Positions 6,388 to 50,401 of a stretch of DNA of 64,000 nt are shown here, one piece after another. Under the pieces are notes generated by a model that was given only the letters and a program-made list of their open reading frames with translations, was not told the origin of the DNA and did no database searches. Within the stretch, counting starts at the first letter, position 1. The number at the start of each line of letters is the position of its first letter. This stretch comes from Flammeovirgaceae bacterium 311 (lineage in GTDB: Bacteria; Bacteroidota; Bacteroidia; Cytophagales; Cyclobacteriaceae). The DNA lies in contig CP004371.1 in assembly GCA_000597885.1 (NCBI GenBank), positions 5,596,001-5,660,000 of the forward strand, read 5' to 3'. The position numbers and the translations under genes are program-made.

Positions 6388-6406
6388 GTTTAAATTCTCC
6401 TTTTGA

Positions 6407-7396: not shown

Positions 7397-7808
7397 ACTT
7401 TAATTGTTTATTAGTAAAAAATATGATTAACCTCATCCTGAAAAAAACTAATAAAAGGTTCAAATCACGTACCACTCCGGCTGAGTGGGTATGGTAAAAG
7501 TTGAATCGTTTATTTAGTTAGTAAGAGTATCTACGTAATGAATGTTTAGATTGGATTTCAACATTTTAGAAAAAAAAGGTAGATATTTTTTAAATTATTT
7601 ATTTGTTTAAGAGATAGTTTAAAATATCATAATAATCCTCCACAAATCATCATAAAATATCTCCTGTTGTCAATTCCTGTGGCTGTTAAAAAGTTGTATC
7701 TAAAAGAAGTATAGTTTGGTAACTATTAATTTTGAATTAACCATAAAACCTTTTCAGCCTGCTTCTGCTTTCTTTTACATCTATTCACTTCTGCTATCAC
7801 CTTTTGCT
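7397..7808. other. Divergent AT-rich intergenic region
   Basis: This region lies between the ferritin-like pair and the large secreted protein. It is much more AT-rich than its surroundings, especially 7560-7720. A TATAGTTTG sequence at 7710-7718 resembles a -7 box with one extra spacer base and would precede the secreted protein's ATG (7809) by about 90 bases. No gene, RNA or clear operator was recognised. Confidence 0.35.
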
Positions 7809-12608: not shown

Positions 12609-12959
12609 CTTGAGTAGTAAAACAGGTTCTAAAATAACCTTTACCAGTAATCCTAATTCCATCATGCAGCAATAGCAGCCGGATTTCCGGCAACTGCTGC
12701 ATTTACCATAACAGATTTTACTGCTCCATTCCTGTACATTCCCTATTCCATTCCCGTACTTGTTAATAACGGCTGAATGCTGGTAGGGCAGCCTTTTATT
12801 GGTATCGCCAAAATTTGTGCCGTCAGCGGGTTGGGTAAAGCTGGTTCTCCTTTTTACTAATGCTGGATTATGATAAAGCCCGATCATTAAGAAAAAATGA
12901 AAGGGGTGGGAGGGAACAAAAGGCTGCAGCAGCACTATTATGAATAAAACAGATAGCAC
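12609..12959. other. Intergenic gap with a stem-loop
   Basis: No credible gene lies in this gap; the 133-codon frame on the minus strand overlaps the end of the secreted protein and has no family-like features. The only clear structure is a stem-loop at 12664-12702: arms ATGCAGCA and TGCTGCAT with an inner GCCGG/CCGGC pair. It lacks a long T-run, so it is a weak terminator candidate for the secreted protein gene. Confidence 0.4.
12664..12702 (+). terminator. Stem-loop after the secreted esterase gene
   Basis: Outer arms ATGCAGCA (12664-12671) and TGCTGCAT (12695-12702) and inner arms GCCGG/CCGGC form a nested hairpin 55 bases after the stop. The following bases are only ATTTACC, so termination is uncertain. 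Confidence 0.4.
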
Positions 12960-31368: not shown

Positions 31369-34300
31369 ATGCAGGAAATAGTCTTATCACGCCTGGAAGC
31401 ATCCCGAAAGGAGCTGCTCGACCTGGGGCTGCGAAATCCTTTGCTCAACTACCGGGGCTCTAAAAGCAGGGGTTTACACATTGTGCAGGAGAAATCTGTC
31501 TGCATCTATGATATCCTGGTAAAGCAGGGCAAGGCCATGACTTTTCTGCCAAAGAAAAAATCAGAAGGTGCCGGAAAAGAAGGGGAGGAGGGCCAGCTGG
31601 AGTTTCTGGAGCCAACGGATGCCTCGCTGGAGCAGGCCTATGGCGATACAAAGTTGCAGACAGAAGAAACGGAACTTACGCTCCAGAACAAGCTCCTGAA
31701 TACCTATTACGCTGCCCGTACCAGCCTGGAGGAGCAGGGTGTAAACATCCTGTACATTGCCCTGGGCAAACTGCACTGGTACGAAACTACCAGCAGTGAA
31801 GAGGCAAGGCTGGCACCCCTGCTGCTGATTCCCGTCTCCCTGGAGCGCCATACGGCCAGGGAGCGCTTCCGCATCCGCTATACCCTGGCAGAGCTGGAGG
31901 GCAACCTTTCGCTGCAGGCAAAACAGAAGGCCGAGTATGGCATCAGCTTACCTGATCTGCCCGAGACAGATGATTTCAGCCTCGATAAATATTTTGAAGA
32001 GATACAGGAGGCAGTGGGCCACCTGCCCAGGTGGAAGGTAGAGCAGGATTCCATTGAGCTGGGTTTTTTCTCCTTTGGCAAATTCATGATCTACCACGAT
32101 CTGGATAATGCAAAATGGCCTGAAGGAAGCAAACCAGCCGAGCATGAAGTGCTACAGGCATTATTCCACGAAGGTTTCAGCGAGCCACCACCCTCCGTTC
32201 CGGAAGAGGCTTTCCTGGATGATGAAACCGACGCCAACCAGCTTTTTCAGGCAGTAGATGCCGATAGTTCACAGGTGTTGGCCATGCTGGCCGTGCATGA
32301 GGGGCGGAACCTGGTAATCCAGGGTCCTCCGGGCACCGGCAAATCGCAAACCATTACCAACATTATTGCCAATGCCATCGGGCAGGGTAAAAAAGTGCTG
32401 TTTGTCTCTGAAAAAATGGCCGCCCTGGAGGTGGTGAAGCGCCGCCTGGATACCATTCATCTGGGAGAGGCCTGCCTGGAATTGCACAGCCACAAGGCCA
32501 ATAAAAAAGTGCTGCACGAGGAACTAAGGCGGGTACTGGAGCTAAGAAAGCCTGCCCTGCACCACCTGGAGCAGGAGGTTGTGCTATTGGAGGACTACAG
32601 AGCCGAGTTGAACAGCTATAGCAGTGCTGTCAATACAGAGATCAGGCAGAGTGGCCTCACGCCCTACCAGGTAAAAGGATACTTGCTGCAGCTGGCTGAA
32701 AAAATCAGGAATGTTCCTTTGCCAAACATTCCACTACCTAACCTGAATAAATGGGATGGCAGTACCATGAGGCGGGCAGAAGCCCTGGCCGATCGGATAC
32801 AGGCCAGGTTAAAAGATATAGGTACACCAGCTAACCTACAGTTTTGGGGTAGCCGCTTAAAAGTGCTGCTCCCTCATGAGCAGGAGCGTTTGCCGCTTCT
32901 GCTGCAAAAAACAGTGGGCGCTGTAGAAGCGCTGCAGCAACAGGGTGCAGATGCCGCAGAAACCTTTGGCCTGACCTCCCCCGCAGACCGCAGGGATAGC
33001 CTGAAGCTGCTGGACATGACTGAAATACTTTCCCGGCAGCCCGATGTAAGCGAGCTGGCGGTAAAAGATGATGCCTGGCTGTTCAAAACGGCGGATATCG
33101 TGGAGCTGCTGCAGATGGGTAAGCACCTGGCAGCACTTCATCAGCAGTATGGGGATATTTTTATTGCCGAAGCCTGGGAGCAGGATGTGCTGGAGATACG
33201 GCAGAACCTGCTGGCCTATGGTGATAAGTGGTATAAATTCTTCATTGGTGATTACCGGAAAAGCAACAAACAGCTGGCAGGACTGCTTAAAGTAAAGCTG
33301 CCAAAAGATACTGAAACAAGGCTTCAGTGGGTGGATAGTCTGCTGGAGGCAAAGCAGCTTAGCACTGGTTTGGTAAGCTATGAAAGTCTGGCGTCGGGGC
33401 TTTTTGGCAGGCGATGGCAGGGCTTAAACTCAGACTGGAATGCCCTAACCACCGCCGCTACCTACCTGGCAGAACTGCACCAGATGATCAGGAACCGGAA
33501 ATGGCCTGTTGAAATCTTAAATTATATAGAGGCTAATCCGGAGCCGGCTGTTGCTAAACAGCACAAACATGTATTAACTGACAGGCTTGCCGAACATGAG
33601 GCAGCTGTTCAGGAGCTGGTCCGGAAACTGGAACTGGATGAAAATACCCGCTTTGGCGGGTCCACTTTTTTACTGCAGCCTTTTGAGCAACAGTTGCAGC
33701 TTAGCCGGGAATGGATAGACCATCTGCCGGAAATACACCAGGTCATCTCCTGGAATAACCTGGCAGAAACCGCTGCGGAAGAAGGATTTGCCGGACTGGC
33801 AGAGGTATCCATTTCCTGGCCCATTGCGAAAGATTATCTGAAATACAGCCTGCAAAAGGCCTGGTACCAGTACCTGCTGGAGCAGGCCATTACAGATGAG
33901 CCGGCCCTGCGTAAATTTGAACGCAGCAGCCATGAGGAGGCGGTAAAACAGTTCAGGCGATTGGACCTGCTTAACCTGCAGTACAACAGGGCCAGGGCTG
34001 CCTCCATCCACTGGGAAAATATCCCGCGGCTGGAGGCCGGCGGTCAGGTGAACATTCTGCGCACTGAGTTTCACAAAAAAGCCCGGCACATGCCCATCCG
34101 TAAGCTGATGCGCGAGGCAGGACTGGCCATTCAGGCCATCAAGCCGGTATTTATGATGAGCCCGCTCTCCATTGCCAATTTCCTGCCTCCGGGCAGCATG
34201 GAGTTTGACCTGGTGATTTTTGATGAAGCAAGCCAGGTACGGCCGGTGGAGGCGCTGGGCGCTATTTTAAGAGCAAAGCAACTGGTGGTGGTAGGCGATA

Positions 34301-36060
34301 CCAAACAGCTGCCGCCCACCAGCTTTTTCGATTCGCTTACCAAAGAGGTAGAGGATGAAGAAAATGTAACTGCCGACCTCCAGAGCATCCTTGGCATGTG
34401 CGATGCACAGGGAGCCCCTCAGCGAATGCTGCGCTGGCACTACCGAAGCCGGCACGAATCCCTGATCAGTCTCTCCAACCACGAGTTTTACGAGAACAAG
34501 CTGGTGATCTTCCCCAGTCCGGGTACCAAAGACCACATGGGACTGGTGCTTCACCACCTCAAAGATACCGCTTATGATCGGGGTAAAACCCGCACCAACT
34601 CGCTGGAGGCTTCTGCAGTAGCCGATGCCGTGATGGAACATGCCCGCAATACGCCCGGGCGAACGCTGGGGGTGGTGGCATTCAGCACCTCACAGATGCA
34701 GGCCATTCAGCAGGAGCTGGAGTTAAGGCGGCGCAAACATCCCGAGCTGGAAGATTTCTTTCAGAAACACGCACACGAGCCCTTTTTTGTAAAGAACCTG
34801 GAAAATGTACAGGGCGACGAACGGGATGTGATCTACATCAGCATTGGCTATGGCCGTACCAGCGAGGGCTATGTGAGCATGTCGTTCGGCCCCCTGAACA
34901 ATGAGGGAGGCGAGCGCCGGCTTAATGTACTGATCACCCGGGCAAAGCTGCGCTGTGAGGTGTTTACCAACATTACGGCAGATGATATTGATACCGACCG
35001 CACCAAGAATATTGGGATCAGGGCACTGAAAAATTTTCTTTACTATGCCCAGCATGGCAAGCTGAATTTTAACGAAGAAAGCGGCAGAGTAGCCGAAAGT
35101 CCTTTTGAAGAAAATGTGGCGCTGCAGCTGGAACGCCTGGGTTATGGAGTCAGAAAGCAGGTAGGTTCACAGGGCTTTTACATTGATCTGGCCATTGTAG
35201 ATCCTGAACATCCCGGCAGGTACCTGCTGGGCATTGAGTGCGATGGTGCCGCTTATCATTCGGCACGCTCTGCCCGCGACCGTGACAGGCTGCGGCAGCA
35301 GGTGCTGGAAAACATCGGCTGGCGCATACACCGTATCTGGAGCACCGACTGGTTCCGCAACCCGGAACGTGAACTAAAAAGAGTTGTGGCTGCCATAGAA
35401 AAAGCCCATAGCATGGCAGCGATGGAAGAAGAGGAAACTGAACCCGGGGCGCAGCCAGAAAGTGCTGTGTTGCTAAGAGAAGATGGTGAGAGGTCCGGAA
35501 ACGATTTGCCGGTTTATACTTATGCAGCATTGCCTTCCGAAATAGCAAATCAGGAGCTCCATCTGGTACCGTTAACAAAGCTTGCCGGCTGGGTCAGTGA
35601 GCTGGTGAAAACAGAAAGTCCTATACATTTTGAGGAGGCTGCCAGGCGAATGGTGGAGGCAGCAAAGATTACCCGGGTGGGGCCAAGAATCAGGCAGAGC
35701 CTACAGGAGGCAGTTGCCCACGCGCAGGAAAAGGGAGATATCATTGCCAGGGGAGATTTTCTATGGCACCTACAGATGCAGCAGCCGCAGATCAGGGACC
35801 GCAGCAGCTTTCCATCCACTTCTAAAAAATTGAAATTTATCGCCCCGGAAGAAATAAACCTGGCAGTGGTAAAGGTGGTGAAAGATGCAGTGGCAATCCA
35901 GTCAGAGGAGGCAGTTCCCCTCATCGCCAGGCTTTTTGGCTTCTCAAGAGTAACCGAAGACATAAAGCAGGAGCTCCTGCAGGCAATAGAGCAAAGCCTT
36001 CAGGAAAGAGTTATTGTGCAGGATGGAGCTTGGCTTAGAATGACTGACAAGGAAGTTTAG
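31369..36060 (+). CDS. DUF4011 / SF1 helicase / Vsr-like nuclease / DUF3320 protein
   Basis: The 1,563-residue protein begins with the DUF4011 motif region (RKELLDLGLRNPLLNYRGSK). A UvrD/AAA_11-type SF1 helicase follows: Walker A GPPGTGKS at 319-326, motif II DEAS near 952 (FDEASQ), motif III GDTKQLPPT, QGDERD and LITRAK. Then comes a Vsr/MTES_1575-type nuclease domain near residues 1250-1340, with FYIDLAI and GIECDG as the Asp and Cys-Asp catalytic-region motifs. The end is DUF3320-like. The architecture equals a reported antiphage family (remembered as Hhe); it probably unwinds and cuts DNA. Confidence 0.82.
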   Translation: MQEIVLSRLEASRKELLDLGLRNPLLNYRGSKSRGLHIVQEKSVCIYDILVKQGKAMTFLPKKKSEGAGKEGEEGQLEFLEPTDASLEQAYGDTKLQTEETELTLQNKLLNTYYAARTSLEEQGVNILYIALGKLHWYETTSSEEARLAPLLLIPVSLERHTARERFRIRYTLAELEGNLSLQAKQKAEYGISLPDLPETDDFSLDKYFEEIQEAVGHLPRWKVEQDSIELGFFSFGKFMIYHDLDNAKWPEGSKPAEHEVLQALFHEGFSEPPPSVPEEAFLDDETDANQLFQAVDADSSQVLAMLAVHEGRNLVIQGPPGTGKSQTITNIIANAIGQGKKVLFVSEKMAALEVVKRRLDTIHLGEACLELHSHKANKKVLHEELRRVLELRKPALHHLEQEVVLLEDYRAELNSYSSAVNTEIRQSGLTPYQVKGYLLQLAEKIRNVPLPNIPLPNLNKWDGSTMRRAEALADRIQARLKDIGTPANLQFWGSRLKVLLPHEQERLPLLLQKTVGAVEALQQQGADAAETFGLTSPADRRDSLKLLDMTEILSRQPDVSELAVKDDAWLFKTADIVELLQMGKHLAALHQQYGDIFIAEAWEQDVLEIRQNLLAYGDKWYKFFIGDYRKSNKQLAGLLKVKLPKDTETRLQWVDSLLEAKQLSTGLVSYESLASGLFGRRWQGLNSDWNALTTAATYLAELHQMIRNRKWPVEILNYIEANPEPAVAKQHKHVLTDRLAEHEAAVQELVRKLELDENTRFGGSTFLLQPFEQQLQLSREWIDHLPEIHQVISWNNLAETAAEEGFAGLAEVSISWPIAKDYLKYSLQKAWYQYLLEQAITDEPALRKFERSSHEEAVKQFRRLDLLNLQYNRARAASIHWENIPRLEAGGQVNILRTEFHKKARHMPIRKLMREAGLAIQAIKPVFMMSPLSIANFLPPGSMEFDLVIFDEASQVRPVEALGAILRAKQLVVVGDTKQLPPTSFFDSLTKEVEDEENVTADLQSILGMCDAQGAPQRMLRWHYRSRHESLISLSNHEFYENKLVIFPSPGTKDHMGLVLHHLKDTAYDRGKTRTNSLEASAVADAVMEHARNTPGRTLGVVAFSTSQMQAIQQELELRRRKHPELEDFFQKHAHEPFFVKNLENVQGDERDVIYISIGYGRTSEGYVSMSFGPLNNEGGERRLNVLITRAKLRCEVFTNITADDIDTDRTKNIGIRALKNFLYYAQHGKLNFNEESGRVAESPFEENVALQLERLGYGVRKQVGSQGFYIDLAIVDPEHPGRYLLGIECDGAAYHSARSARDRDRLRQQVLENIGWRIHRIWSTDWFRNPERELKRVVAAIEKAHSMAAMEEEETEPGAQPESAVLLREDGERSGNDLPVYTYAALPSEIANQELHLVPLTKLAGWVSELVKTESPIHFEEAARRMVEAAKITRVGPRIRQSLQEAVAHAQEKGDIIARGDFLWHLQMQQPQIRDRSSFPSTSKKLKFIAPEEINLAVVKVVKDAVAIQSEEAVPLIARLFGFSRVTEDIKQELLQAIEQSLQERVIVQDGAWLRMTDKEV

Positions 36061-37627: not shown

Positions 37628-37955
37628 AGATAAAAATGTTATGCTTTGTTTTCAGATCTGTGAAAAATGATCATCATCTAACAGGTAAGGCATTAAGGGC
37701 TGTGCTGAAATGTCTTGGCTACAAGGCGGCTTAGGAGAAGTTTCCTATTCAGAAACATTTCGCATCAAGGCTTGCTTAAAAACCACTACACAAAAATTTA
37801 CATAAAGAAATAAAACTAGGGTAGTTTTTGAATATCAGAGCGGAACAGATTGTGGTATCATGATCACATAAAACCGGATTCTTTCCACATTCTGCCCTGC
37901 TTGCTTTCATTTGCTTCTAAAATCTTTTAGATTTTGCTCTAAAACAGTTTAGCCG
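37628..37955. other. Divergent intergenic region, decarboxylase / retron operon
   Basis: These 328 bases contain the promoter of the WGR gene but no full TAnnTTTG box: TAGATTTTG (37929-37937) and TAGTTTTTG (37822-37830) each have one extra spacer base. The WGR gene itself starts with a GTG. No gene or RNA is seen. Confidence 0.4.
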
Positions 37956-40900
37956 GTGCAGATCATCAAGGATGCCTCCCTGTTTTTTAGGGAGGGCAAT
38001 TCAGATAAAGTTTACGAGCTGGAGCTGCAGCAAGCAGGGACAGGGGAGTATGTGGTAAACTTCCGCTACGGCAGGCGTGGTACAGCCCTGCGCGAGGGAA
38101 CCAAAACTATTTTTCCTGTTTCCCTGGCCGAGGCCGAAAGGGTATATGAAAAGCTGCTGAAAGAGAAAACTGATAAGGGGTACCAGCATACAGGCAGCGC
38201 CAGTCATGGCCTGCAACCACCTCTTAAAGCAACAGCTGCAGCAGCGCAGGAGCAGGAGGATAAAATACTGGAATACCTGCAAATTGCCTCCAGGGGCAGG
38301 TGGCAGGACGATCACTGGAAACTCTCACGCCTGGTTTGGCGCACAGGTGAACTGAAGCTGGTAGGAGCTGAACCTTACCTGGTAAACCTGCCCCGGCAAA
38401 AAGATGAGTTCTTCAACTATGCCCTGGCCTGGGCCCTGGGGCGCTGTGCCAATATTACCGCTACCGATAAGCTGATGGAGCTAAGGCGCAGCACTGATCC
38501 AAAAGTGGCCAGAATTGCTACGGTAGCCTTAAGTAAAATTGGCACACCGGCTGCACAACAGGCCCTGGACGATGAGCTGATGGGCAGGCTGCCAGCCAGC
38601 CTGCGGGAGGCCCTGCGCAACAACAATGCGGAGACCCTGCAGGAGGGGCTCCATGAACTACTTTATGAGCTACAGAGCCGTCAGCCCGATTTCCTGTTTA
38701 CCATTTACCTGCTGTCACGCAAGTATCCATTTGTATCAGCAGTGCTCCTGCAGGTTTTGGCTACACTGCCCTTCAGACCCCCTTACTTTCAACAAATACG
38801 CTACCTGCTGAAGGCCGGCGAGCTGCTGGAAGATAGCAGTGTGTGGGGCCTCATCAATGCCCGCATCGATAAAAATAAAGGCTTTTTTAAGCGGAGTCGC
38901 TGGGATGGAGGTGCCCTGGTTGAGGGTGAGTACATCAGGAAAATAGAGGATGAGCTGAAGAGAGAAGATTCCAGGGCAGCCTATTCTGATAAAACCCGCA
39001 GGTATCTGCAAAAAAGAGCGCTTCGTCTCCTTACCCGGATGGGCGAAGCAAAAGACCGGAGCTTTACCCCCTTTGCAAGAGACCTGCTGCTGCAGTATAC
39101 CGATGCTGATAACAGGGGCCCCAGCCAGACCTATACCTATGATTATGATCCCCTGACCCGCCGGTCTACACTGGTTACCCACCATTTCCCTGCTTTTTCG
39201 GAATATCCGCTCCTGAACCTGCTGCTGTACCGCAACAGTCGCAGGTTTGAGATGACGGCCAATAGCCTGAAGCTGCGCTACCGGCCTCCGCATCAGCCCT
39301 CTGAAACAACTGCCGCCCAGCGAGGTGTCGCTCAGCCGGGTGCCGCCCAGCGGGGTGCCGCCCAGCGCGAAGAGGCATTTCCTGCGCTTTGGGATAATGC
39401 GCCCCAGGACCTGGTGATCCTGCTTCAGCAGAACCGCTGTCAGCCGGTGAATGCGTTTGCCGTAAAAGCTTTTCGGGCTAATCCCTACTACAGGGAGTTT
39501 AGCACACCTGTGCTGATCTTCGACCTGCTCAACAAGCCTTACCCGGAAAGCAATGCCCTGGGAATGGAAATCGCCCGGGAGGGGTATGATCCGGCTAATC
39601 CGGATGTGGAGCTTCTTTTTGCTCTGCTCGACTGTAATCTGTTGGAGGCGCAGGCGCTGGGTATTAGCTGGCTGCAGGCAGCCAGAAGAAAAATACTGCA
39701 GGAAAAAGAAAATGTGGTAAGGCTGCTGCTGGCAAAACAGCCTGCGGTGGGGCAGTGGACTAAAGATAATGTAAGCCCAAACCTTTTTCACTCCACCATG
39801 GCCAAAGGAGTAACCGAAGAGGTGCTGGAGCTTCTGCCACTGATGGTACCGCCGGATGCTGAACCAGCCTCTGCAAATCCATGGGTGGCACAGGTAGGAG
39901 AGCTATTGCTGCTCCTGTTCCCGGAGGCGGTGAAAGAAGCATCTCTCCCCCATGTGCAATTGTTGCTGTCACACCCGCTTGAGGCCATGCAGGCCCTGGG
40001 GGTAAAAATATTGCTGCGCCACCGTACCCGGGCAGAGGAACTGCCGGCGGGTATGTTCGAAACCCTGCTCACCAGCCCCTACGCATCGGTGCGCGCCTCA
40101 GGAGTAGATTTATTTGGCCGGCTTACCAATTATATTCTCTACGAGCGCCGGGAGGTGCTGGTTAGTTTCTGCCTGTCCATCCACCCGGAGGTGCGCCAGC
40201 AGGTAATTCCGATTGTGGCCAAGCTGGTGCAGTACCGCAGCGGATTTGGCAGTGAGCTGCTGCTTTTGCTGTTGCCGCTGTTCTGGCAGAAAGAAAACCA
40301 TGAAGGCATTCATGCCGATCTGCTGGCCCTGTTCCAGGAGTCGTTGCTGCCTTATTTTAAGGAGATTCCGGAAGATAAGATCTGGAAGCTGATTGAAGCC
40401 CGGTTCCGTACAGCGCACTTACTGGGCAGCCAGCTGCTGCACCAGCATGTTGCCCTGGAAAAGGTGCCCCTGGAGCGGATTGCCGGTCTGGCCAATCACG
40501 AACTGCTGGAGCTGCGGCAGCTGGCCTGGCGCTACTTCGAAGCCCATGTACCGCAGGCGCGCTACGAGCGTGAGGCCACCCTTAAGCTGCTGGATGCCCC
40601 CTGGGATGATAGCTGGCTGTTTACAAAGCAGTACCTGGAAACCCATTTTAGAACCGAAGACTGGACCCCGGCGCTGCTGGTGAGCATCTGCGATCATAAG
40701 CGCGAAGAGGTGCAGCAATGGGGACTGCGCCTCATTAACAAACATTTTCAGGAGGAGGATGGCGCAGATTATATGTTAAAGCTAAGCCAGCACCCAAATA
40801 CCGGGCTGCAGCTATATGTAACCAACTACCTGCGGCACTATGCCGCCGGCCATCCCGAACGCATCAGTGGCTTGCACTACTATTTTGTGGCTGTATTATC

Positions 40901-41129
40901 GCAGGTAAACAGCGGGAGGGTAGCCAAAGAACGAGTTTTTGACTTTCTGCAGCAGGAGGCCCTGGCCAGCGAAGAGGTAGCCCGTGGGGTGGTGCCACTC
41001 ATTTCCCGCATCTCCGCTACCATTGCCATCCACGATAAAGCCCGCTGCCTGCTGCTGCTGGCGCAGCTGAAAAAGCAATATCCGGAGCTGGATTCTGCTA
41101 TCACCATCAAAGAACCTAAAACTGTATGA
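37956..41129 (+). CDS. WGR-domain protein with HEAT/ARM-like repeats, retron-associated
   Basis: The 1,057-residue protein has a GTG start and an N-terminal WGR domain (residues 1-75: SDKVYELELQQ, VVNFRYGRRGTALREGTKT), which binds nucleic acid ends in PARP-type proteins. The rest is helical repeats of the HEAT/ARM kind, e.g. DPKVARIATVALSKIGTPAA, the YASVRASGVDLFGRL and HPNTGLQLYVTNYL segments. Residues ~453-472 are a tandem in-frame repeat. No catalytic motif is visible. It overlaps the SWIM gene by four bases (ATGA) and is the first gene of the retron locus, so it is a candidate effector or RT/ssDNA binding partner. Confidence 0.85.
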   Translation: MQIIKDASLFFREGNSDKVYELELQQAGTGEYVVNFRYGRRGTALREGTKTIFPVSLAEAERVYEKLLKEKTDKGYQHTGSASHGLQPPLKATAAAAQEQEDKILEYLQIASRGRWQDDHWKLSRLVWRTGELKLVGAEPYLVNLPRQKDEFFNYALAWALGRCANITATDKLMELRRSTDPKVARIATVALSKIGTPAAQQALDDELMGRLPASLREALRNNNAETLQEGLHELLYELQSRQPDFLFTIYLLSRKYPFVSAVLLQVLATLPFRPPYFQQIRYLLKAGELLEDSSVWGLINARIDKNKGFFKRSRWDGGALVEGEYIRKIEDELKREDSRAAYSDKTRRYLQKRALRLLTRMGEAKDRSFTPFARDLLLQYTDADNRGPSQTYTYDYDPLTRRSTLVTHHFPAFSEYPLLNLLLYRNSRRFEMTANSLKLRYRPPHQPSETTAAQRGVAQPGAAQRGAAQREEAFPALWDNAPQDLVILLQQNRCQPVNAFAVKAFRANPYYREFSTPVLIFDLLNKPYPESNALGMEIAREGYDPANPDVELLFALLDCNLLEAQALGISWLQAARRKILQEKENVVRLLLAKQPAVGQWTKDNVSPNLFHSTMAKGVTEEVLELLPLMVPPDAEPASANPWVAQVGELLLLLFPEAVKEASLPHVQLLLSHPLEAMQALGVKILLRHRTRAEELPAGMFETLLTSPYASVRASGVDLFGRLTNYILYERREVLVSFCLSIHPEVRQQVIPIVAKLVQYRSGFGSELLLLLLPLFWQKENHEGIHADLLALFQESLLPYFKEIPEDKIWKLIEARFRTAHLLGSQLLHQHVALEKVPLERIAGLANHELLELRQLAWRYFEAHVPQARYEREATLKLLDAPWDDSWLFTKQYLETHFRTEDWTPALLVSICDHKREEVQQWGLRLINKHFQEEDGADYMLKLSQHPNTGLQLYVTNYLRHYAAGHPERISGLHYYFVAVLSQVNSGRVAKERVFDFLQQEALASEEVARGVVPLISRISATIAIHDKARCLLLLAQLKKQYPELDSAITIKEPKTV
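39315..39374 (+). repeat. 15-bp tandem repeat, four copies, within WGR gene
   Basis: Four contiguous 15-base units (39315, 39330, 39345, 39360) based on GCCCAGCGGGGTGCC encode the pentapeptide AQRGA/AQPGA. In-frame copy number can change without breaking the protein. Confidence 0.88.
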
Positions 41130-42775
41130 TATTCAACTACCGGTATGGGGGAGAAACCAAAGTAAACAGCAGCTCCTCGGCAGTGGGCGTTAGCTTTGCA
41201 CCCGATACCCTGCGGGAGCCTACTTATTTTATCGGCAAGCTTAACAGGCACCTTTCGTTCAGGGAGGCCATTTCGGCCCTGCATGAGGTGGTGGTATCCG
41301 ATCTGCGCTTTAAGCCGCGGGAGCGTACTGAATACAAAGCCTGGCTGGCGGAGCAGGAACCCCTGTGGCTGGCCGAGGCCCTGGCGCAAAAGCAGGCGCT
41401 GAAGCAGGAGATTGATCTGAAAACCAGCGAGCTGAAGGCGCTTCGGCAGCAGCGTGATGCCATTATGGGGCCTTTCTATAAAGCCAGGAGCAAGTATTTC
41501 AACTACCTCTATGAGCGCGACCGCGATATGTGGGTGGTGCTCGATCCGGTGATCAGCGTGCATCCTGATGAAGTGTTTTTTGAATGCTTCAGCCAGGACG
41601 AATCAACTTACGGAAAGCTTAGCTGTGACTACGAGGTGTTCAAAAATATTGATGAATTTAAGTGTGGTACCACCAACATCGATTACTCCTCGGCACTCTA
41701 TGAGCAGTTCCAGAAGATCAGGACCTATAAAGAAACCGAATTTAAGATAGACCCTGCAGGTTTTGAAGTGCAGACAGGCCGGGATGATGGCTATCGGGAA
41801 GTTAAAATAGACCTGCCTGATTCCTGGGTGCGTGGATTCTTGCAGGTAAGTTCTGCCATGACCATGCCCGCCAGAACCCTGTCGCTGCACCCCATGGATA
41901 TGCACAACCTGCTCTTTATCCTGAAGCGGCACAAGGAAAAGGAGGGGCCGCGGGCCATGCGTTTTCACCTGAACCCGGGCCAGCCTATCCGGGTGGTGTT
42001 TGAACCCTGGAATTACGAGGTGGTATGCGACCGATCTCCCTACACCGGCCATGAGCCCGACGAAATAAGGGTGTGGGGCCGAAGGCGGCTGCTGATCCTG
42101 GAGCGGTTGCTGCCGGTGGCAAAACGCTTTACCGTTACCCTGCTGGGTACAGGCATGCCCTCTTTTTACGAAGCCGACCTGGGTGATATGCAATTCACAC
42201 TGGGCCTTTCGGGCTGGACAGCCAATGACTGGTCCAGGATGGGCAACTTCGATCTGCTGGCACCCCGCCGGGAGGTAGATGCCATAACCCAGCAGCAGGT
42301 GTACCAGGTGCTGAAGGAAATCTGGCAGGAGAGTGCCGATTCGCTTGCACAGCGCCTGCAGCTGGATAAAAGCATGGTGCTGGGGGCGCTCACCTCCTTT
42401 GTACAGGCCGGACGTGCCATATACGACAGGCATAAAGACGTTTACCGCATCCGGGAGCTGCGGCGGGAGGAGTTACCGGTAGCCGAGCTACGCTTTGCCA
42501 ACCTAAGGGAGGAGTTCGCCCACTTTTTCGTGAAAACCAACCGGGTAAAGCTTGGGCAGATCGACCAACAGGCAGCAGGGGTGAAGATAAGGGGCAGGGT
42601 AGAAGATAAAGGGCGTGAGTACGAGCCGGTGATTACCATCGACAGGGACGAGCGCCTGGTGCAGCCCAGCTGTACCTGCAATTTTTATCAGCAGCATAAG
42701 CTCTTTAAAGGGCCCTGTGAGCATATGCTGGCGCTGCGCATGCGCTGGGGGCAAAAAGTAGCAGAAAAAAACTAA
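41126..42775 (+). CDS. SWIM zinc-finger protein, retron-associated
   Basis: 549 residues. Near the C-terminus is a SWIM finger, Cys516-x-Cys518-x12-Cys531-x-His533 (PSCTCNFYQQHK, GPCEHMLAL). Before it lies a likely winged-helix segment (SLAQRLQLDKSMVLGALTSFV), so it matches the WH-SWIM arrangement. The first ~400 residues are an alpha/beta region with acidic and aromatic stretches and no recognised enzyme motif. It starts within the WGR stop and is followed by the msr-msd and the RT gene, so the three are most likely one functional set. Confidence 0.85.
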   Translation: MIFNYRYGGETKVNSSSSAVGVSFAPDTLREPTYFIGKLNRHLSFREAISALHEVVVSDLRFKPRERTEYKAWLAEQEPLWLAEALAQKQALKQEIDLKTSELKALRQQRDAIMGPFYKARSKYFNYLYERDRDMWVVLDPVISVHPDEVFFECFSQDESTYGKLSCDYEVFKNIDEFKCGTTNIDYSSALYEQFQKIRTYKETEFKIDPAGFEVQTGRDDGYREVKIDLPDSWVRGFLQVSSAMTMPARTLSLHPMDMHNLLFILKRHKEKEGPRAMRFHLNPGQPIRVVFEPWNYEVVCDRSPYTGHEPDEIRVWGRRRLLILERLLPVAKRFTVTLLGTGMPSFYEADLGDMQFTLGLSGWTANDWSRMGNFDLLAPRREVDAITQQQVYQVLKEIWQESADSLAQRLQLDKSMVLGALTSFVQAGRAIYDRHKDVYRIRELRREELPVAELRFANLREEFAHFFVKTNRVKLGQIDQQAAGVKIRGRVEDKGREYEPVITIDRDERLVQPSCTCNFYQQHKLFKGPCEHMLALRMRWGQKVAEKN

Positions 42776-42807
42776 GAGAAAAACAGAATAGTATTAACTT
42801 TAAAACC

Positions 42808-43026
42808 AGGCAGCAGCAGGAGAAAAACTTGCAATCTGAGCGGCGGATCGCCGCTCCGGCATACAGCAATGCAACGCGTCACTGGCGCGTTCTTAACGGT
42901 GCACCCCATCTATATGTATGCCATTTCCGGTGCCACATCGGAGATGTGAAATAGCATACATATAGCGGGGTGCTTGAGTTGAACACTCCAGTCCTGTGAG
43001 TGTACGAAGTAGACCTGCTGCTGCTT
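42808..43026 (+). ncRNA. Retron msr-msd non-coding RNA
   Basis: The 261-base gap before the RT has the full retron RNA plan. The 13-bp a1/a2 inverted repeat (42808-42820 with 43014-43026; 11 Watson-Crick core GCAGCAGCAGG, plus one G-U and one A-U) brackets it. msr hairpins: GAGCGGCG/CGCCGCTC (42838-42856) and AACGCG/CGCGTT (42873-42891). The msd hairpin has arms GCACCCC/GGGGTGC (42901-42907, 42967-42973), CTATATGTATGC/GCATACATATAG (42910-42921, 42954-42965) and a CACATC/GATGTG tip (42934-42948). A further ACACTC/GAGTGT hairpin (42983-43003) lies 3' of it. The exact ends, branching G and ssDNA ends are not determined. Confidence 0.85.
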
Positions 43027-43036
43027 TTTTCTTTAT

Positions 43037-44542
43037 ATGGCCAACCAGTCAAAACCAACCCGTCAGCAACTTTACGACCGTATCCGCCAGAGCTCCCGCG
43101 ATGAGGTAGTGCTGGAAGAGATGAAAAAGCTGGGCTTCTGGCCCGATGGCGAAGGTGCGCCCTCTCTGCCCGAGCAGGTGATCAGGCGCGAAGGGGAGCT
43201 AAGCCGTGAGCTGGGCGATATGCTGGTGCAGCAGCGCAGGTATAGTGATCGGGAGCAGATGCTGAAAGAGATTCGTCAGCAGCGGATGGAGGCCTCGCGC
43301 CAGAAGCAGAAGGAAAACAAGGAACGGCGGAGGCAGGAGCGGCAGCAAAGGGCGGAGCAATGGAAAGCCCGGCAGGAAAAAGAGATCCTTTACCTGGGTG
43401 AAGGTGTATCGGCAGGTTTAGGAGAATCGGACAACGATGCAGCTAAACTTAGGCTAAACGGACTGCCGGATTTTATAGATATAGAATCACTTGCCCGGGC
43501 CATGGAAATTGATGTGGCCAGCCTGCGCTTCCTGGCTTACAGCCGCCAGGTGAGCAAGGTTTCGCACTACAAACGCTTCTACATTCAGAAGAAGACCGGC
43601 GGCAGGCGCATGATCTCGGCACCCATGCCCAGGTTAAAGCAGGCCCAGCAGTGGATCCTGCTCCATATCCTGGAAAATGTAAAAGTAAACGGGGCGGCAC
43701 ATGGCTTTGTACTCAACAGGTCAATTGTAACCAATGCCCTGCCACACCTGCAGCCCGATTTGCTGGTGAACCTCGATTTAAAAGACTTCTTTCCCACTGT
43801 TACCTACAAACGGATCAAGGGTGTTTTCCGCTCCCTGGGTTATTCGGAAAAGGTAGCGTCCATTTTTGGCCTGATTTGTACCGAGCCCGATATTACCGAG
43901 GCAGAAATGGATGGCCGAACCTACTTTATCGCCAGCGGGGAGCGGTTTTTACCACAGGGAGCCCCTACCAGCCCTGCCCTCACCAACATCCTCTGTCGCA
44001 GGCTGGATGTACGCCTGAAGGGCCTTGCCCGTAAATATGGCTTTACCTATACCCGCTATGCCGATGATCTTTCTTTTTCAGCCAGGGGCGAGGGCAAAGA
44101 AAACCTAACGAAGTTATTAGGCAATGTTCGCCGGATCATAAAGGATGAAGGTTTTGTGATACACCCTGATAAGCTGCGGGTGATGCGAAAGGGCAGCCGA
44201 CAGGAAGTAACCGGTGTGGTGGTGAACCAGAAGTTAAATGTATGCCGCAAAAAGGTGCGGAACTTTAAAGCACTGCTGTTTCAGATTGAAAAAGATGGCA
44301 TTGAAGGCAAAAGCTGGCAGGGGTCTTCCGATAATCTGCTGGCAGTCATCAAGGGATATGCCCACTACATTGCCATGGTAAATCCGGTGCAGGGGAAACC
44401 CCTGGCAGAGCGGGTGGAAGCCATCCTGAAAAAGCACCATTACAGGCACATCATCAAACATCCTGCTAAAAAGCCCTTCATGCAAGCAGCGGCCGAAGAA
44501 GAACCCCAGCCGAAGAAGAAACCCTGGTGGAAGTTCTGGTAG
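43037..44542 (+). CDS. Retron reverse transcriptase
   Basis: 501 residues starting 10 bases after a2. RT motifs: NLDLKDFF, the QGAPTSPALTN motif, catalytic RYADDLSFS (YADD 341-344). Retron-specific signatures are present: region X NALPH (NAxxH, 233-237) and region Y VTG (391-393). The first ~140 residues are an unusual extension with an Arg/Gln/Glu-rich, coiled-coil-like stretch (about 60-118: RQQRMEASRQKQKENKERRR). The C-terminal ends KKKPWWKFW. It should make msDNA from the adjacent msr-msd; upstream WGR and SWIM genes are its partners. Confidence 0.94.
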   Translation: MANQSKPTRQQLYDRIRQSSRDEVVLEEMKKLGFWPDGEGAPSLPEQVIRREGELSRELGDMLVQQRRYSDREQMLKEIRQQRMEASRQKQKENKERRRQERQQRAEQWKARQEKEILYLGEGVSAGLGESDNDAAKLRLNGLPDFIDIESLARAMEIDVASLRFLAYSRQVSKVSHYKRFYIQKKTGGRRMISAPMPRLKQAQQWILLHILENVKVNGAAHGFVLNRSIVTNALPHLQPDLLVNLDLKDFFPTVTYKRIKGVFRSLGYSEKVASIFGLICTEPDITEAEMDGRTYFIASGERFLPQGAPTSPALTNILCRRLDVRLKGLARKYGFTYTRYADDLSFSARGEGKENLTKLLGNVRRIIKDEGFVIHPDKLRVMRKGSRQEVTGVVVNQKLNVCRKKVRNFKALLFQIEKDGIEGKSWQGSSDNLLAVIKGYAHYIAMVNPVQGKPLAERVEAILKKHHYRHIIKHPAKKPFMQAAAEEEPQPKKKPWWKFW

Positions 44543-44547
44543 GAGCT

Positions 44548-46073: not shown

Positions 46074-47102
46074 ATGAAGACCTTAATAAAATCGAAACTT
46101 ATGTTTTCTTTTAATAAAAACCTTGAAAATTTTAGTGTAACAGGCTTGCTGCTAGGTGGTCTGTTGTTGCTAAATGCATGTGGTGGAGATGCCTCGGGAA
46201 CTGGTACGGAAAATTCCCTTTCCGGCAGCATCCAGATTGACGGATCTTCTACGGTTTATCCTATTACTGAAGCAGTGGCAGAGGAATTTCGCAGCGAAGC
46301 CTCCAGGGTAAAGGTAACGGTAGGTGTATCTGGTACTGGCGGTGGCATGAAAAAGTTCTCCCGTGGTGAAATTGATATTGTAGACGCCTCCCGCAGCATG
46401 AATGCAGATGAAGCAGCCATGGCCAAAGAAAATGGTATTACCTACCTGGAGATTCCGGTTGCATATGATGGCCTGACGGTGGTGGTGCATCCTGACAATA
46501 ACTGGGTGAATGATATTACGCTGGCAGAGCTAAAAAGAATTTGGGAGCCTGGTGCGCAGAACACCATCACCCGCTGGAACCAGATCCGCCCGGAATGGCC
46601 CGATCAGGAACTGCACCTCTACGGCCCTGGGGTAGAATCTGGTACCTATGACTACTTTACAGAGGCCGTGGTAGGCAAAAGCCACTCAAGCCGTGGGGAC
46701 TATACCGCCAGCGAAGATGATAATGTGCTGGTACAGGGTGTTTCCACAGATCCATACGCGCTGGGCTTCTTCGGCTATGCCTATTATGAGGAAAATGCAG
46801 CCAAACTGAAAGCGGTGCCGGTAAATGATGAGGATGACAGCAACGGGCAGGGAGCCATACTGCCAACCCTGGAAACTGTAAAAGATGGGTCCTATGCACC
46901 ACTTTCCCGCCCCCTGTTCATCTACGTCAATTCAAAGGCAGCTGTACGCCCTGAGGTGGTGGAGTTTGTGAATTTCTACCTCGATAATGCCCCGGAGCTT
47001 AGTGAAGAAGTAGGCTACATTCAGCTGCCTGCTGAACGCTACCAGGAGCAGAAGACTAAGTTCCGGCAGTTTGCTGAAGGCCTGAATCAGCAGCAGGAAT
47101 AG
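46074..47102 (+). CDS. pstS: Phosphate ABC transporter substrate-binding lipoprotein PstS
   Basis: 342 residues with lipobox LLLNACGG (Cys36) in the signal region; the ATG at 46101 is an alternative start. The mature protein starts IQIDGSSTVYPITEAVAEEF, with SSTVYP giving the phosphate-binding Ser/Thr residues, and has SRSMNADE and VESGTYDYF from the family. It delivers phosphate to PstCA. It is the first gene of pstSCAB-phoU and follows a possible Pho box. Confidence 0.94.
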   Translation: MKTLIKSKLMFSFNKNLENFSVTGLLLGGLLLLNACGGDASGTGTENSLSGSIQIDGSSTVYPITEAVAEEFRSEASRVKVTVGVSGTGGGMKKFSRGEIDIVDASRSMNADEAAMAKENGITYLEIPVAYDGLTVVVHPDNNWVNDITLAELKRIWEPGAQNTITRWNQIRPEWPDQELHLYGPGVESGTYDYFTEAVVGKSHSSRGDYTASEDDNVLVQGVSTDPYALGFFGYAYYEENAAKLKAVPVNDEDDSNGQGAILPTLETVKDGSYAPLSRPLFIYVNSKAAVRPEVVEFVNFYLDNAPELSEEVGYIQLPAERYQEQKTKFRQFAEGLNQQQE

Positions 47103-47160
47103 GGTATAAAGCATGAGGTATCGGCAAAATGTACTATTAGCACATTAGCATATTACACCC

Positions 47161-48036
47161 TTGAGGATACAGGAAAAAATCATCGAAGGCCTTTTGTTGT
47201 TATCGGCCATCATCACCATACTAATTACTGTTGGGATTATATGGGTGTTGCTGTCAGAGTCAGTCAGTTTTTTCAGTGAAGTATCCATTTTCCGGTTCCT
47301 GACAGAGAAGGAGTGGACGCCACTGTTTGCTGACAAGAAGTTTGGCATACTGCCCCTGGTAACGGGTACCCTGCTCACAACTGCCATTGCCATAGCAGTA
47401 GCCCTGCCCATTGGTTTAACAGTTGCGGTTTACCTGAATGAATATGCCCCTGGTAAAATTCGGCAGATCGTAAAGCCTGTACTGGAACTGCTGGCCACCA
47501 TACCAACGGTAGTCTATGGCTTTTTTGCCTTAACGGTTGTAACACCCTTTTTACAAGGCTTTATACCGGGACTGGCAGGTTTCAATGCCCTTTCTGCGGG
47601 CATCGTCATGGGCATCATGATCATCCCCATGATATCCTCCCTTAGCGAAGATGCCATCAGTGCCGTGCCGCAGTCCCTTCGTGAGGCAGCTTACGGGATG
47701 GGTTCCACCCCCTACCAGACAGCTTTTGGCGTAATGGTGCCTGCGGCCTCCTCGGGTATTATTGTATCTGTGATCCTGGCAATTTCGCGTGCGGTGGGTG
47801 AAACCATGATTGTTGCCATAGCAGCAGGACAGCAGCCCCGCCTTACGCTTAATCCGCTGGTACCTATTGAAACCATTACCACCTATATTGTGCAGGTAAG
47901 CCTGGGCGATGTACCCCACGGATCACTTGAGTATAGAACTATTTTTGCTGCGGGTATCACCCTGTTCGTGTTCACCTTCACGCTGAACAACATCAGTTTC
48001 TGGATCAGGAAAAAATTTCAGGAAAAGTATGACTAG
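47161..48036 (+). CDS. pstC: Phosphate ABC transporter permease PstC
   Basis: 291 residues with six membrane segments. The start is a TTG at 47161: no in-frame ATG lies nearby and the preceding frame has a stop. Segments [19 protein letters not shown] and [18 protein letters not shown] followed by [11 protein letters not shown] (EAA loop that contacts PstB) identify it. It pairs with PstA; their reading frames overlap by 8 bases. Confidence 0.94.
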
Positions 48037-48886
48037 TGCTGCATACAACAGGTTAAAGGATAAAGCTTTTCAGGTGTTTGGGATCTGCTGCACCTTTTTT
48101 TGTCTGCTGGTGCTGGCGATCTTCCTGCTGGACATTCTGCTGGAAGGTCTTAGCCGCATTGACTGGGATTTTATTAGCAGCCTTCCTTCCCGCAGGGCTG
48201 CCAGGGCGGGGATTCTCACTGCCTGGACGGGTACCCTCTGGATATTGGTGCTTACTGCGTTCATTGCCATACCGCTTGGTGTGGCAGCAGGGGTTTACCT
48301 GGAGGAGTATGCCCGCAAAGGCCGACTGTCTAATATTCTGGAGATTAATATCTCAAACCTGGCAGGGGTGCCTTCCATTATTTATGGGTTGCTGGGGCTG
48401 GAGATTTTTGTGCGGCAAATGCAGCTGGGGGCCAGCCTCCTCGCTGGAGCCCTTACCTTGTCGCTGCTGATTCTTCCCATTATTATAGTGACTACCCGGG
48501 AGGCGATTAAAGCTGTGCCCGGAAGTATCCGGGATGCCTCTTATGCCCTGGGGGCCTCTAAATGGCAAACCATCTGGATGCAGGTATTACCGGCTTCTGT
48601 AGGTGGTATCATGACGGGTGTTATTCTGGCCCTTTCCAGGGCAGTGGGAGAGGCTGCACCCTTGATTGTAATTGGTGCGCTGGCCTATGTACCCTTTGTG
48701 GCAACAGACCCAATGGAAGAGTTTACAGTACTGCCGATACAGATTTTTAACTGGGTTTCCAGGCCCCAGGCTGCATTCCTTGTTAATGCAGCAGCTGCCA
48801 TTATTGTGTTGTTGTTTATTACGTTTTTGCTGAATGGAATAGCCGTATATTTAAGATACCGGCAGCAGAGAAAAGTTAAGTGGTAA
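48029..48886 (+). CDS. pstA: Phosphate ABC transporter permease PstA
   Basis: 285 residues, six membrane segments; family sequences [20 protein letters not shown] and [20 protein letters not shown] (EAA loop). The 8-base overlap with pstC and 6-base gap to pstB keep the operon tight. Confidence 0.95.
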
Positions 48887-48892
48887 TTCTGA

Positions 48893-49654
48893 ATGAGCAA
48901 ATATTATAAACTTCTCGCCATAGAGGTGAATGCCTACTACGGCGATTTTCATGCCATCAAAAACATAAGCCTAGGCCTGGAAGAAAAGGCAGTAACTGCT
49001 TTTATAGGACCTTCGGGATGTGGTAAGTCTACTTTTCTGCGCCTGTTTAACCGCATGAACGACTACATCGATGGTTTTCGTTTAGACGGCGAGATCCTGC
49101 TGGATCAAAAAGACATCTACCAGAAAAACGTACGTGTAGATGAACTCCGGAAGGAGATAGGCATGGTTTTTCAGAAACCAAACCCATTCCCTAAAACCAT
49201 TTTCGAAAATGTGGTGTACGGACTTAAAATACAGGGTATCAGTAAAAAGTCTGTGCTGGAGGAATCTGCAGAACGCTCTCTGAAGCAGGCGGCCCTGTGG
49301 GATGAGGTAAAGGATAAGCTGCACAAATCAGCCCTGGCCCTCTCAGGCGGGCAGCAGCAAAGACTTTGCATCGCAAGAGCACTTGCCAATGGCCCCAGCG
49401 TATTGCTGATGGATGAGCCTGCCTCTGCGCTGGACCCCATCTCTACTGCCAAAATAGAAGAGCTGATCTGGGAGCTTAAAAAAGACTATACCATTGTAAT
49501 TGTTACCCACAATATGCAGCAGGCCGGCAGGGTGAGCGATAATACAGCTTTCTTCCTTTCCGGAGAGTTGATTGAGCAAGCAAAAACAAAATCCTTGTTC
49601 ACCAATCCTAAAGATCAGCGCACCCAAAATTATATTACCGGACGTTTTGGTTAA
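48893..49654 (+). CDS. pstB: Phosphate ABC transporter ATPase PstB
   Basis: 253 residues. Walker A is GPSGCGKST, signature [15 protein letters not shown], Walker [17 protein letters not shown], and the H-loop THNMQQA. The segment [20 protein letters not shown] is specific to PstB. It hydrolyses ATP for phosphate uptake. Confidence 0.97.
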
Positions 49655-49726
49655 TGCGTATACTGCATTGTTGTAATATTGTTAGGTACTAATATATCCG
49701 GATTTTAACGCTAGAATATCAAGAGC

Positions 49727-50401
49727 ATGCCTCATATAGATGTAGAAATAGAGCGCCTGAAAAAGAAACTCATGCAGATGTGGGATGTGGTAGAGTTTCA
49801 GCTGGTGAGCGGGCGCGAGGCGCTGATCAATGCAGACCAGCGCCTGTCAAAAAAGATCATCAAGCGGGGAGATAAGGTAAATGAGTACGATGTAAAGATA
49901 GACCGCATGTGCGAGAACTTCTTTGCCCTGTTTACACCGGTAGCTGTTGACCTGCGGGTGGTGCTGGCCATTCTGAAAATAAATGCCAACCTGGAGCGTA
50001 TTGGCGATACAGCCGAAGGGATCGCTCATTTTGTGAAAGACTTTGAAAACCCCCTTGAGCAGGAGTTGCTGGAGGCAACCAAAGTATTAGAAATGTATGA
50101 TGAAGCACTTAGTATGTTTGCGGACTGCCGCAGGGCTTTTCTTGAAAATGATACCGAGCTGGCGACAGAGCTGATTAAGCGTGATAAATTTCTTAATAAA
50201 ATTTACCGCAGGTCTGACAGTATTGTAATTCCTTACCTGAAGCAAAACCCGGATAAGATCAAGGAAGGAGTGGCGCTGCTTTCGATTATCAAGAAAATTG
50301 AACGGGTGGGCGACCAGGTGAGCAATGTAGCCGAAGAAATCATTTTTTATCGTGATGCCAAGGTGGTGAAGCACCAGTTGAAAAGAAAGAAGAAGGATTG
50401 A
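49727..50401 (+). CDS. phoU: Phosphate signalling regulator PhoU
   Basis: 224 residues forming two three-helix PhoU domains; metal-binding-type motifs EYDVKIDR in the first and ERIGDTAEGIAHF and ERVGDQVSNVAEE mark each repeat. It ties Pst activity to the PhoR-PhoB pathway. It is the last gene of the operon, 72 bases after pstB. Confidence 0.96.
   Translation: MPHIDVEIERLKKKLMQMWDVVEFQLVSGREALINADQRLSKKIIKRGDKVNEYDVKIDRMCENFFALFTPVAVDLRVVLAILKINANLERIGDTAEGIAHFVKDFENPLEQELLEATKVLEMYDEALSMFADCRRAFLENDTELATELIKRDKFLNKIYRRSDSIVIPYLKQNPDKIKEGVALLSIIKKIERVGDQVSNVAEEIIFYRDAKVVKHQLKRKKKD

Follow-up and report, generated by a model that had tools for sequence, protein, structure and literature searches.

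What kind of genetic element is formed by a reverse transcriptase (RT) gene together with the structured RNA lying in front of it, and how could the parts of such an element work together? The question is raised by a stretch of 64,000 nucleotides from Flammeovirgaceae bacterium 311 (contig CP004371.1, positions 5,596,001 to 5,660,000), which is called the window below and from whose first letter positions are counted unless another locus is named. An initial annotation, made from the sequence alone, had placed here a complete retron at 42808-44542, consisting of an msr-msd RNA and a retron RT. The comparisons described below leave almost no doubt about the identity of the locus, which appears to be a type XIII retron: an operon of four elements on the forward strand (37956-44542), in which a WGR-HEAT gene, a SWIM gene, the msr-msd RNA and the RT gene follow each other. 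The system of the window is an ordinary new member of a catalogued type, and its interest lies in the comparison across the whole type.

The type XIII operon

Three adjacent genes of the window find their best PADLOC models in the same retron type (RT_XIII, SWIM_XIII and WGR_XIII; scores in Table 1). The next-best family for the RT reached 324.8 bits, and among the best 25 of the 51 PADLOC matches the top ones were retron RT models. The WGR_XIII and SWIM_XIII genes overlap by 4 bases, the SWIM stop at 42775 and the RT start at 43037 leave a gap of 261 nt (42776-43036, precisely the 261 bases previously counted before the RT gene), and most of this gap is the RNA gene. As far as gene content goes, the two retron accessory genes stand directly upstream of the RNA and the RT. 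The initial annotation had not linked them to the RT, so that the retron was recognized correctly but its extent was drawn too small, as the two genes at 37956-42775 belong to it too. The genome of the bacterium holds a single RT of type XIII and a single msr-msd RNA, and no Rfam family was detected at the gathering threshold anywhere in the window. The closest relative found, Cesiribacter sp. SM1 (L002), shares 81.5% DNA identity over 37793-44543.

NAxxH, YADD and VTG are motifs of retron RTs, and the RT of the window does carry them as described earlier: NALPH at amino acid (aa) 233 (43733), YADD at aa 341 (44057) and VTG at aa 391 (44207). In the RT tree, which is unrooted and leaves out L174 and L040, a single branch (99/99) separated 46 type XIII RTs from 23 other RTs of the phylum; the phylogeny that had been proposed as a check thus groups the RT of the window with type XIII and not outside the retrons. 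The retron reading is backed by these motifs, by the best-scoring family, by the grouping in the tree and by the covarying RNA upstream, which is described next.

Fold and covariation of the msr-msd RNA

The segment 42776-43036 folds at -111 kcal/mol, whereas 200 dinucleotide shuffles gave -70.5 +- 4.8 kcal/mol (z -8.5; 0/200 as low). The msr-msd RNA adjoins the RT gene and has both a1/a2 and an invariant G, and the 13-bp inverted repeat reported in the initial annotation was recovered with one G.U pair in it. We infer the roles of two invariant motifs: G42831 in CTTGC is the candidate branching and priming guanosine, and CGAAG probably represents the start of the reverse-transcribed template. 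As a separate observation, GAGAAAAAC is present twice, at 42776-42784 and 42820-42828, before a1 and just after it; a short repeat in two copies can be due to chance.

Eighteen RNAs, including that of the window, were aligned (alignment A1; two of the loci are represented by two RNAs each), and CTTGC, GAGTTG, AGTC and CGAAG were invariant in all of them. The RNAalifold consensus contained 50 pairs with 90.9% of the cells paired, and 37 of the 50 pairs had changed on both sides and were kept. None of 500 shuffles reached the consensus structure in any of five measures, and sliding the partners reduced the pairing to 34-44%. Since the structure was derived from the very alignment on which it was tested, which favours it on the measure of paired cells, the stronger point is the number of cells with double changes, 220 observed against 70 expected. 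Covariation in homologues, another check suggested earlier, is present.

The homologues also separate the better from the less supported parts of the fold. The initial annotation had described two msr hairpins: the first (42838-42856) is supported by the relatives, while the second (about 42873-42891) forms in the window sequence's own fold but is paired in only 63.6% of the cells over the 18 RNAs, with 3 of its 9 pairs changed on both sides. A small 3' hairpin is paired in 57.6% of the cells; both beat their slid versions on this measure and neither is convincing. The pairing of CACTGG with CCAGTC, which closes the base of the msd, is better supported than the second msr hairpin. The long msd hairpin (42901-42973) is present as annotated and is backed by the homologues. 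Its arm consists of a conserved base, a long stem which differs among relatives and stays paired, and a conserved head, in which the columns T121, C123 and G125 (42926, 42928 and 42930) and others are invariant.

A covariance model built from the 18 aligned RNAs (R1) found 73 RNAs in 51 of 52 locus sources, L163 having none; these matches include the 18 training RNAs, and most of the sources were fetched because earlier searches had pointed there. A megaplasmid of the alphaproteobacterial Methylobacterium bullatum, which was found via SWIM and was not in the training set, also gave a match (E 2.8e-27), its open frames being ordered WGR-like, SWIM, RNA, RT. Where an RT was mapped, the RNA is usually its immediate upstream neighbour. 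The order is RNA-RT-WGR-SWIM in L167 and L170, and two weak R1 matches in distant relatives are placed elsewhere, in L181 just downstream of the RT and in L182 about 10 kb from SWIM. In L162 (G737) about 5.9 kb (6801-12695) separate the SWIM gene (12695-14335) from the RT (5425-6801), and the RNA (6835-7064) is beside the RT.

Word usage and evolution of the msd stem

The letters of the long stem were compared by word counts in 47 stem arms (clusters of less than 70% identity, from 66 curated arms), on both strands, against random windows of the same loci. CTAG (28 against 2.9), GTAC (40 against 5.5), ACTA/TAGT (41 against 5.8) and CCCC/GGGG (36 against 4.6) were enriched in the stems, and AGGA/TCCT was depleted (0 against 9.7). 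At k=4 the a1 arms of the same RNAs correlated with the genomic usage (rho +0.41), the msd stems did not (rho -0.14). The idea of a stem built of genomically rare words was borne out only partly (overall p 0.11 for the latter correlation), CTAG, ACTA, CCTA and TATA being rare in the loci and common in the stems.

Among the dinucleotide steps of the stems GG/CC and AC/GT are raised, and AA/TT and GA/TC lowered, which partly fits a DNA preferring the A-form: PMC2687451 describes AA/TT and GA/TC as A-phobic and GG/CC as A-philic. On the A-philicity scale (the table in PMC3483203, where the last four labels are misprinted and were read as TA, TC, TG and TT, and the P1 and P2 columns are equal) the stems were A-philic, with z -7.3 against composition shuffles and z -11.5 against genomic windows, and the a1 and msr controls were not. 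A preference of the stems for A-form DNA is a candidate property only. The odds are even that the word usage reflects instead the stability of the RNA or of the hybrid, or transcription, and no such DNA property: over the ten dinucleotide steps the fit to the scale was not significant (rho -0.50, p 0.14), the main misfit being TA, the strongest gain in the stems, which is yet middling on the scale and is B-preferring in crystals according to PMC2687451. This alternative is opposed by the a1 arms, which are equally paired in the RNA and follow the genomic usage, unlike the msd stems, and by the stacking energies of DNA and RNA, which fit worse (rho 0.22 and 0.04).

Two further ideas about the stem were not kept. 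A hypervariable msd stem was rejected, its divergence lying below that of fourfold-degenerate RT/SWIM sites in 16 of 16 close pairs (these share members and are not independent, and L160 was compared by its SWIM gene only); L164 and L165 differ by 10% in the stem and by 66% at the fourfold-degenerate sites. The window and L002 are among the pairs closest to neutral, with 38% (gapped) in the stem against 43%, and an ungapped count by eye, 12/21, would exceed the latter value. Because pairing alone could give slow evolution, nothing but the word usage hints that the letters of the stem matter in themselves. A palindromic bait stem was also unsupported, palindromic 4- and 6-mers being not above dinucleotide shuffles; inverted repeats within one arm were mildly raised (180, against 164 +- 6 in dinucleotide shuffles, 0/300, and 158 +- 8 in genomic windows, 2/200).

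The RT tail and the predicted clamp-like accessory protein

In the type XIII RTs the sequence that follows VTG varies, forming an unconserved linker towards the C-terminus, and at its end a short motif, WWx[VILF][VILFW] (WWxΦΦ), was recognized; in the window it lies in the peptide PWWKFW. It occurs within the last 9 aa of 31 of the 47 type XIII RTs, the window's counted, and of 0 of the 24 other RTs, and it is exactly terminal in 30 of those 31, while the number expected from shuffles of the last 45 residues is 0.018. Among the 31 tailed RTs identity reaches 55% over the final five residues, against 11% over the preceding 30. DNA polymerases commonly carry C-terminal clamp-binding peptides of such layout.

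SWIM_XIII is predicted to consist of a sliding-clamp-like region, a helical region (possibly a winged helix) and a C-terminal SWIM zinc finger. Its AlphaFold2 (AF2) model has a mean predicted local distance difference test (pLDDT) value of 59.2, its better parts being the last 90 residues (70-88) and aa 241-360 (57-95 in blocks of ten residues). In the Foldseek search against PDB the best 50 of the 331 rows (E <= 0.001) were all PCNA entries (best E 2.2e-07, probability 1.00), and the matches listed among viral models included PCNA, DnaN-type clamps and herpesvirus processivity factors, plus unnamed rows. Judged by this model, SWIM_XIII likely contains a sliding-clamp-like fold, and it is this predicted fold, together with the RT tail, that leads to the clamp-coupled reading. 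The WGR_XIII protein is modelled as a long HEAT/ARM-like helical solenoid preceded by an N-terminal WGR domain (AF2, pLDDT 78.6; profile hits to alphaRep/HEAT), and its Foldseek matches, among those listed, are mostly large helical-repeat proteins.

Several observations weigh against such a reading. The pLDDT of the SWIM model falls below 50 at aa 59-148 and 175-240, where the first clamp domain would lie, the template modelling (TM) scores against PCNA, taken by target, reach only about 0.5, and the root-mean-square deviations are mostly 8-11 A. No Pfam clamp family was found for SWIM at E up to 5 (the HMMER filters drop most matches above 0.1), a search of PDB sequences up to E 1 gave no clamp, and the Pfam and profile searches detected no enzymatic or catalytic domain in either the WGR or the SWIM protein. 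On the RT side, 16 of the 47 type XIII RTs do not have the strict tail. It is missing in L180, L174, L183, L163, L012 and L181, and five RTs of family f7 (L164, L165, L166, L168 and L169) end otherwise, three of them with FF or WF; the Methylobacterium RT, which is outside the 47, also ends otherwise. Near-variant tails are present in L155, L142, L178, L150 and L170. The RT of L174 (G1442, 5968-7343) may be frameshifted or broken, because it aligns as two overlapping pieces and its open frame has 293 aa.

It is rather improbable, but deserves serious consideration, that the retron is real while SWIM is not clamp-like in function: the clamp similarity would then be a by-product of a weak model, the protein a winged-helix/zinc-finger adaptor, and the RT tail would bind WGR/HEAT or the RT itself. 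The mean pLDDT of 59, the low-confidence segments and the missing sequence-level match to clamp families are in line with this possibility, as is the winged-helix (WH) adaptor known in type IX (PMC13405049). It is opposed by the PDB search, whose 50 best rows are all PCNA, and by the viral list, in which several independent clamp families appear besides the unnamed rows. The RT tail is moreover placed like the clamp-binding tails of polymerases.

The proposed mechanism

By analogy with known retrons, the RT would bind the RNA folded by a1/a2, would prime from a 2'-OH, for which G42831 is the candidate, and would copy the msd arm as far as the conserved base of the arm, leaving a DNA hairpin that is linked to RNA and has a long duplex stem (multicopy single-stranded DNA, msDNA). 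On this analogy it is very probable that the locus makes msDNA. The RT, the msDNA, SWIM and the WGR/HEAT protein would form one complex, in which SWIM, clamp-like by prediction, would be the subunit holding the msDNA, and the WWxΦΦ peptide on its flexible linker would dock on SWIM as a polymerase tail docks on a clamp; we place this binding of the tail to the modelled clamp region slightly short of an even chance. The WGR/HEAT protein would be kept inactive in the complex and would be the effector or the carrier of the effector, and the chances that it is the toxic effector itself appear balanced. A phage factor acting on the msDNA stem, by binding, methylation, cleavage or unwinding, would free the WGR/HEAT protein, halting the infected cell. 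In studied retrons it is the msDNA that restrains the effector, until the msDNA is acted on by a phage factor (PMC13158370 and PMC13405049), and the msDNA as a trigger sensor is reviewed in the former.

A type XIII retron with a clamp-coupled, effector-releasing mechanism is our best overall explanation, to which we assign a probability of roughly 0.55; its clamp-coupled part we infer from the predicted models.

Tandem RNAs in related loci

While the window carries one RNA, 14 of the 50 loci with an R1 match (two contigs of G1618 counted as one) carry 2-4 tandem RNAs between the SWIM and RT genes. In the sample of the Saprospiraceae family (that of G734) 12 of the 15 positive genomes had 2-4 RNA matches, the two of G1598 being on different contigs, and both Planctomicrobium genomes have two RNAs each.

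In the 14 array loci the own a2 was the best partner for 30 of the 36 scored copies. Corresponding copies keep their stem between genomes in four related loci (similarity 0.91 for L006b-L161b, 0.83 for L006a-L161a, 0.82 for L161b-L141b and 0.71 for L161b-L154a), while copies within one array can be no more alike than shuffled stems are (0.21 for L154a-b and 0.25 for L006b-c, the shuffled stems having a mean of 0.27 and a 95% point of 0.39). Close copies are found in other arrays (L146a-b 0.88, L153a-b 0.87), and the mean stem similarity over the 22 within-locus pairs is 0.49. Since most copies pair best with their own a2 and, in the four related loci, are kept between genomes yet differ within arrays, a single RT seems to be shared by several lasting msDNAs, which in some loci are clearly different.

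That the tandem RNAs are meaningless, being decayed duplicates or assembly errors, is unlikely. Low-scoring copies do exist (E 1e-11 to 1e-17 per genome) and some fold irregularly, the array genomes, where titled, are metagenome bins, the a2 of another copy pairs better for 6 of the 36 copies, and the copies of some arrays are alike (0.64-0.88). Besides the pairing with the own a2, decay or misassembly is contradicted by the four related loci, whose corresponding copies are kept between genomes (0.71-0.91) and whose same-array copies differ (0.21-0.47), and by the two Planctomicrobium genomes, which share a copy pair with the same two stem types. The broadest form of our proposal, namely that type XIII as a whole consists of clamp-coupled retrons, whose RT tail docks on a clamp-fold accessory holding or encircling the msDNA duplex, and that in the Saprospiraceae and Planctomicrobium arrays one RT with its two to four RNAs displays several distinct stems together, as baits for phage factors, is speculative, and we regard it as doubtful.

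Distribution of the system

A scan of genome contigs with the RT led to 12 loci, in Bacteroidota, three Planctomycetota and one Desulfobacterales, and SWIM_XIII was present in all 12 genomes reached by RT similarity. In even samples SWIM_XIII was found in 5 of 395 genomes of the class at E 1e-20 (own genome counted) and, at E 1e-40, in 22 of the 392 genomes sampled from the phylum to which the planctomycete L009 belongs (centre counted), many of these 22 scoring lower. The RNA occurred in 5 of 249 genomes of family f7, in 11 of 180 of the family to which G732, an Arcicella, belongs and in 15 of 160 of the Saprospiraceae family mentioned above; the three counts include the centre genome, and those of f7 and G732 also other known positives.

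In whole genomes R1 matched 24 of 40. The other 16 gave no match at E 0.001, namely G280, G467 and 14 genomes of planctomycetes in which SWIM_XIII had been hit. Of these 14, G785 showed a weak match of 45.5 bits when its locus was searched alone. In the planctomycete loci L053-L059 and L061-L067 the relatives of SWIM_XIII score about 430-600 bits; these loci may be non-retron or divergent. In L073 (G806), which is outside the 52 locus sources, a match of 69.5 bits at 3280-3511 lies beside a second SWIM_XIII gene and had been missed by the whole-genome search, and G806 may hold two type XIII loci. None of the 13 candidate stretches from viral contigs searched with the RT was a relative, and SWIM had no match in 50,697 phage records.

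Features and neighbouring genes

The features of the locus are collected in Table 1. A 1563-aa DUF4011/helicase/MTES_1575 nuclease protein (31369-36060, forward strand) matches the PADLOC candidate defence family PDC-S37 with 2116.6 bits; because its gene lies 1.9 kb upstream of the retron operon, the two may form a small defence cluster. Farther away on the same strand, reading of the translations revealed a probable phosphate-uptake operon (46074-50401; a binding protein, two permeases, an ATPase and a PhoU-like protein), and the gene at 7716-12608 encodes a 1630-aa fn3/PA14 protein whose C-terminus is a Por secretion sorting tail.

Table 1. Parts of the type XIII retron operon in the window (paired cells and changed pairs refer to the 18 aligned RNAs).
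Feature	Position	Strand	Remarks
WGR_XIII accessory, 1057 aa	37956-41129	+	PADLOC 1047.9 bits; Pfam WGR and HEAT_2
SWIM_XIII accessory, 549 aa	41126-42775	+	PADLOC 784.3 bits; Pfam SWIM at aa 508-537
a1 inverted repeat	42808-42820	+	13 bp with 43014-43026, one G.U; duplex -25.9 kcal/mol
CTTGC	42828-42832	+	invariant in 18 RNAs; helix 1 joins its CTT to the AAG in CGAAG: 100% of cells paired
msr hairpin	42838-42856	+	helix 2: 100% of cells paired, 5/7 pairs changed on both sides
CACTGG, 5' side of msd base helix	42880-42885	+	helix 3: 90.4% paired, 7/11 pairs changed on both sides
Left arm of long msd stem	42901-42921	+	helices 4-6: 17/18 pairs changed on both sides
Conserved apical head of msd hairpin (CATTTCCGGT...GTGAAATA)	42922-42953	+	helices 7-8: 92.2% and 95.6% paired
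Right arm of long msd stem	42954-42973	+	
CCAGTC, 3' side of msd base helix	42988-42993	+	pairs with CACTGG
CGAAG adjoining a2	43005-43009	+	invariant in 18 RNAs
a2 inverted repeat	43014-43026	+	pairs with a1
Type XIII retron RT, 501 aa	43037-44542	+	PADLOC RT_XIII 638.2 bits; Pfam RVT_1
RT C-terminal peptide PWWKFW, candidate clamp-binding motif	44522-44539	+	WWx[VILF][VILFW]

Significance and comparison with known systems

A literature search for 'retron' with WGR and SWIM returned no paper, and in the main text of PMC12548924 'XIII' appears nowhere. Among the matches listed for tandem or multiple RNAs no paper dealt with tandem retron RNAs, judging by titles and the opening of the abstracts, and the search on retrons plus sliding clamps, within the same limits, gave none joining both, although PMC9967889 holds both words. 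The array form and the clamp-like fold were thus not met in the retron literature searches, but we do not claim them as unpublished; neither do we claim this for the RT tail and the stem word usage, at which no literature search was aimed. How the sequence and the stem-loop structure of msDNA relate to recognition specificity is still unclear according to a 2026 commentary (PMC13158370). Type XIII offers a natural test set here, with stems that differ among relatives and among copies under one RT, in a strongly conserved frame. A clamp-like accessory with a docking peptide on the RT would, if true, be a new way of building a retron complex, linking retrons to the biology of replication clamps, and it might inspire RT-clamp fusions that make DNA inside cells.

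Defence-associated RTs (DRT) are alike in having a neighbouring structured RNA, and the system of the window differs from them by its retron motifs and its a1/a2 priming layout. It is highly improbable that the RT acts as a DRT does, with a structured RNA which only resembles msr-msd and with no 2'-5' branch: DRT systems too are reported to pair an RT with a neighbouring structured RNA (PMC12039810 and PMC12483538), but the RT here carries NAxxH and VTG and has RT_XIII as its best family, and a1/a2 with the invariant G just inside, one msr hairpin and then the msd arm follow in retron order.

The members of retron type XIII, which is catalogued in a defence library (PADLOC; models RT_XIII, SWIM_XIII, WGR_XIII and HEAT-ARM_XIII), have the same three proteins in one operon with the RNA before the RT, and nothing of the window system falls outside the type. 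The paper defining this type is reportedly that of Mestre et al. (2020). PCNA and DnaN sliding clamps, with the tails of their polymerases, resemble SWIM_XIII by its predicted fold and the type XIII RT by a tail on a variable linker, whereas SWIM_XIII differs from them by its fused SWIM zinc finger, and no sequence similarity between them was found. The type IX retron-Kva2, as described in PMC13405049, is alike in combining RT, RNA, adaptor and effector, its WH protein bridging the msDNA and the RT; in the place of its HEPN and WH proteins the window system has WGR/HEAT, a predicted clamp-like SWIM and the tail motif of the RT.

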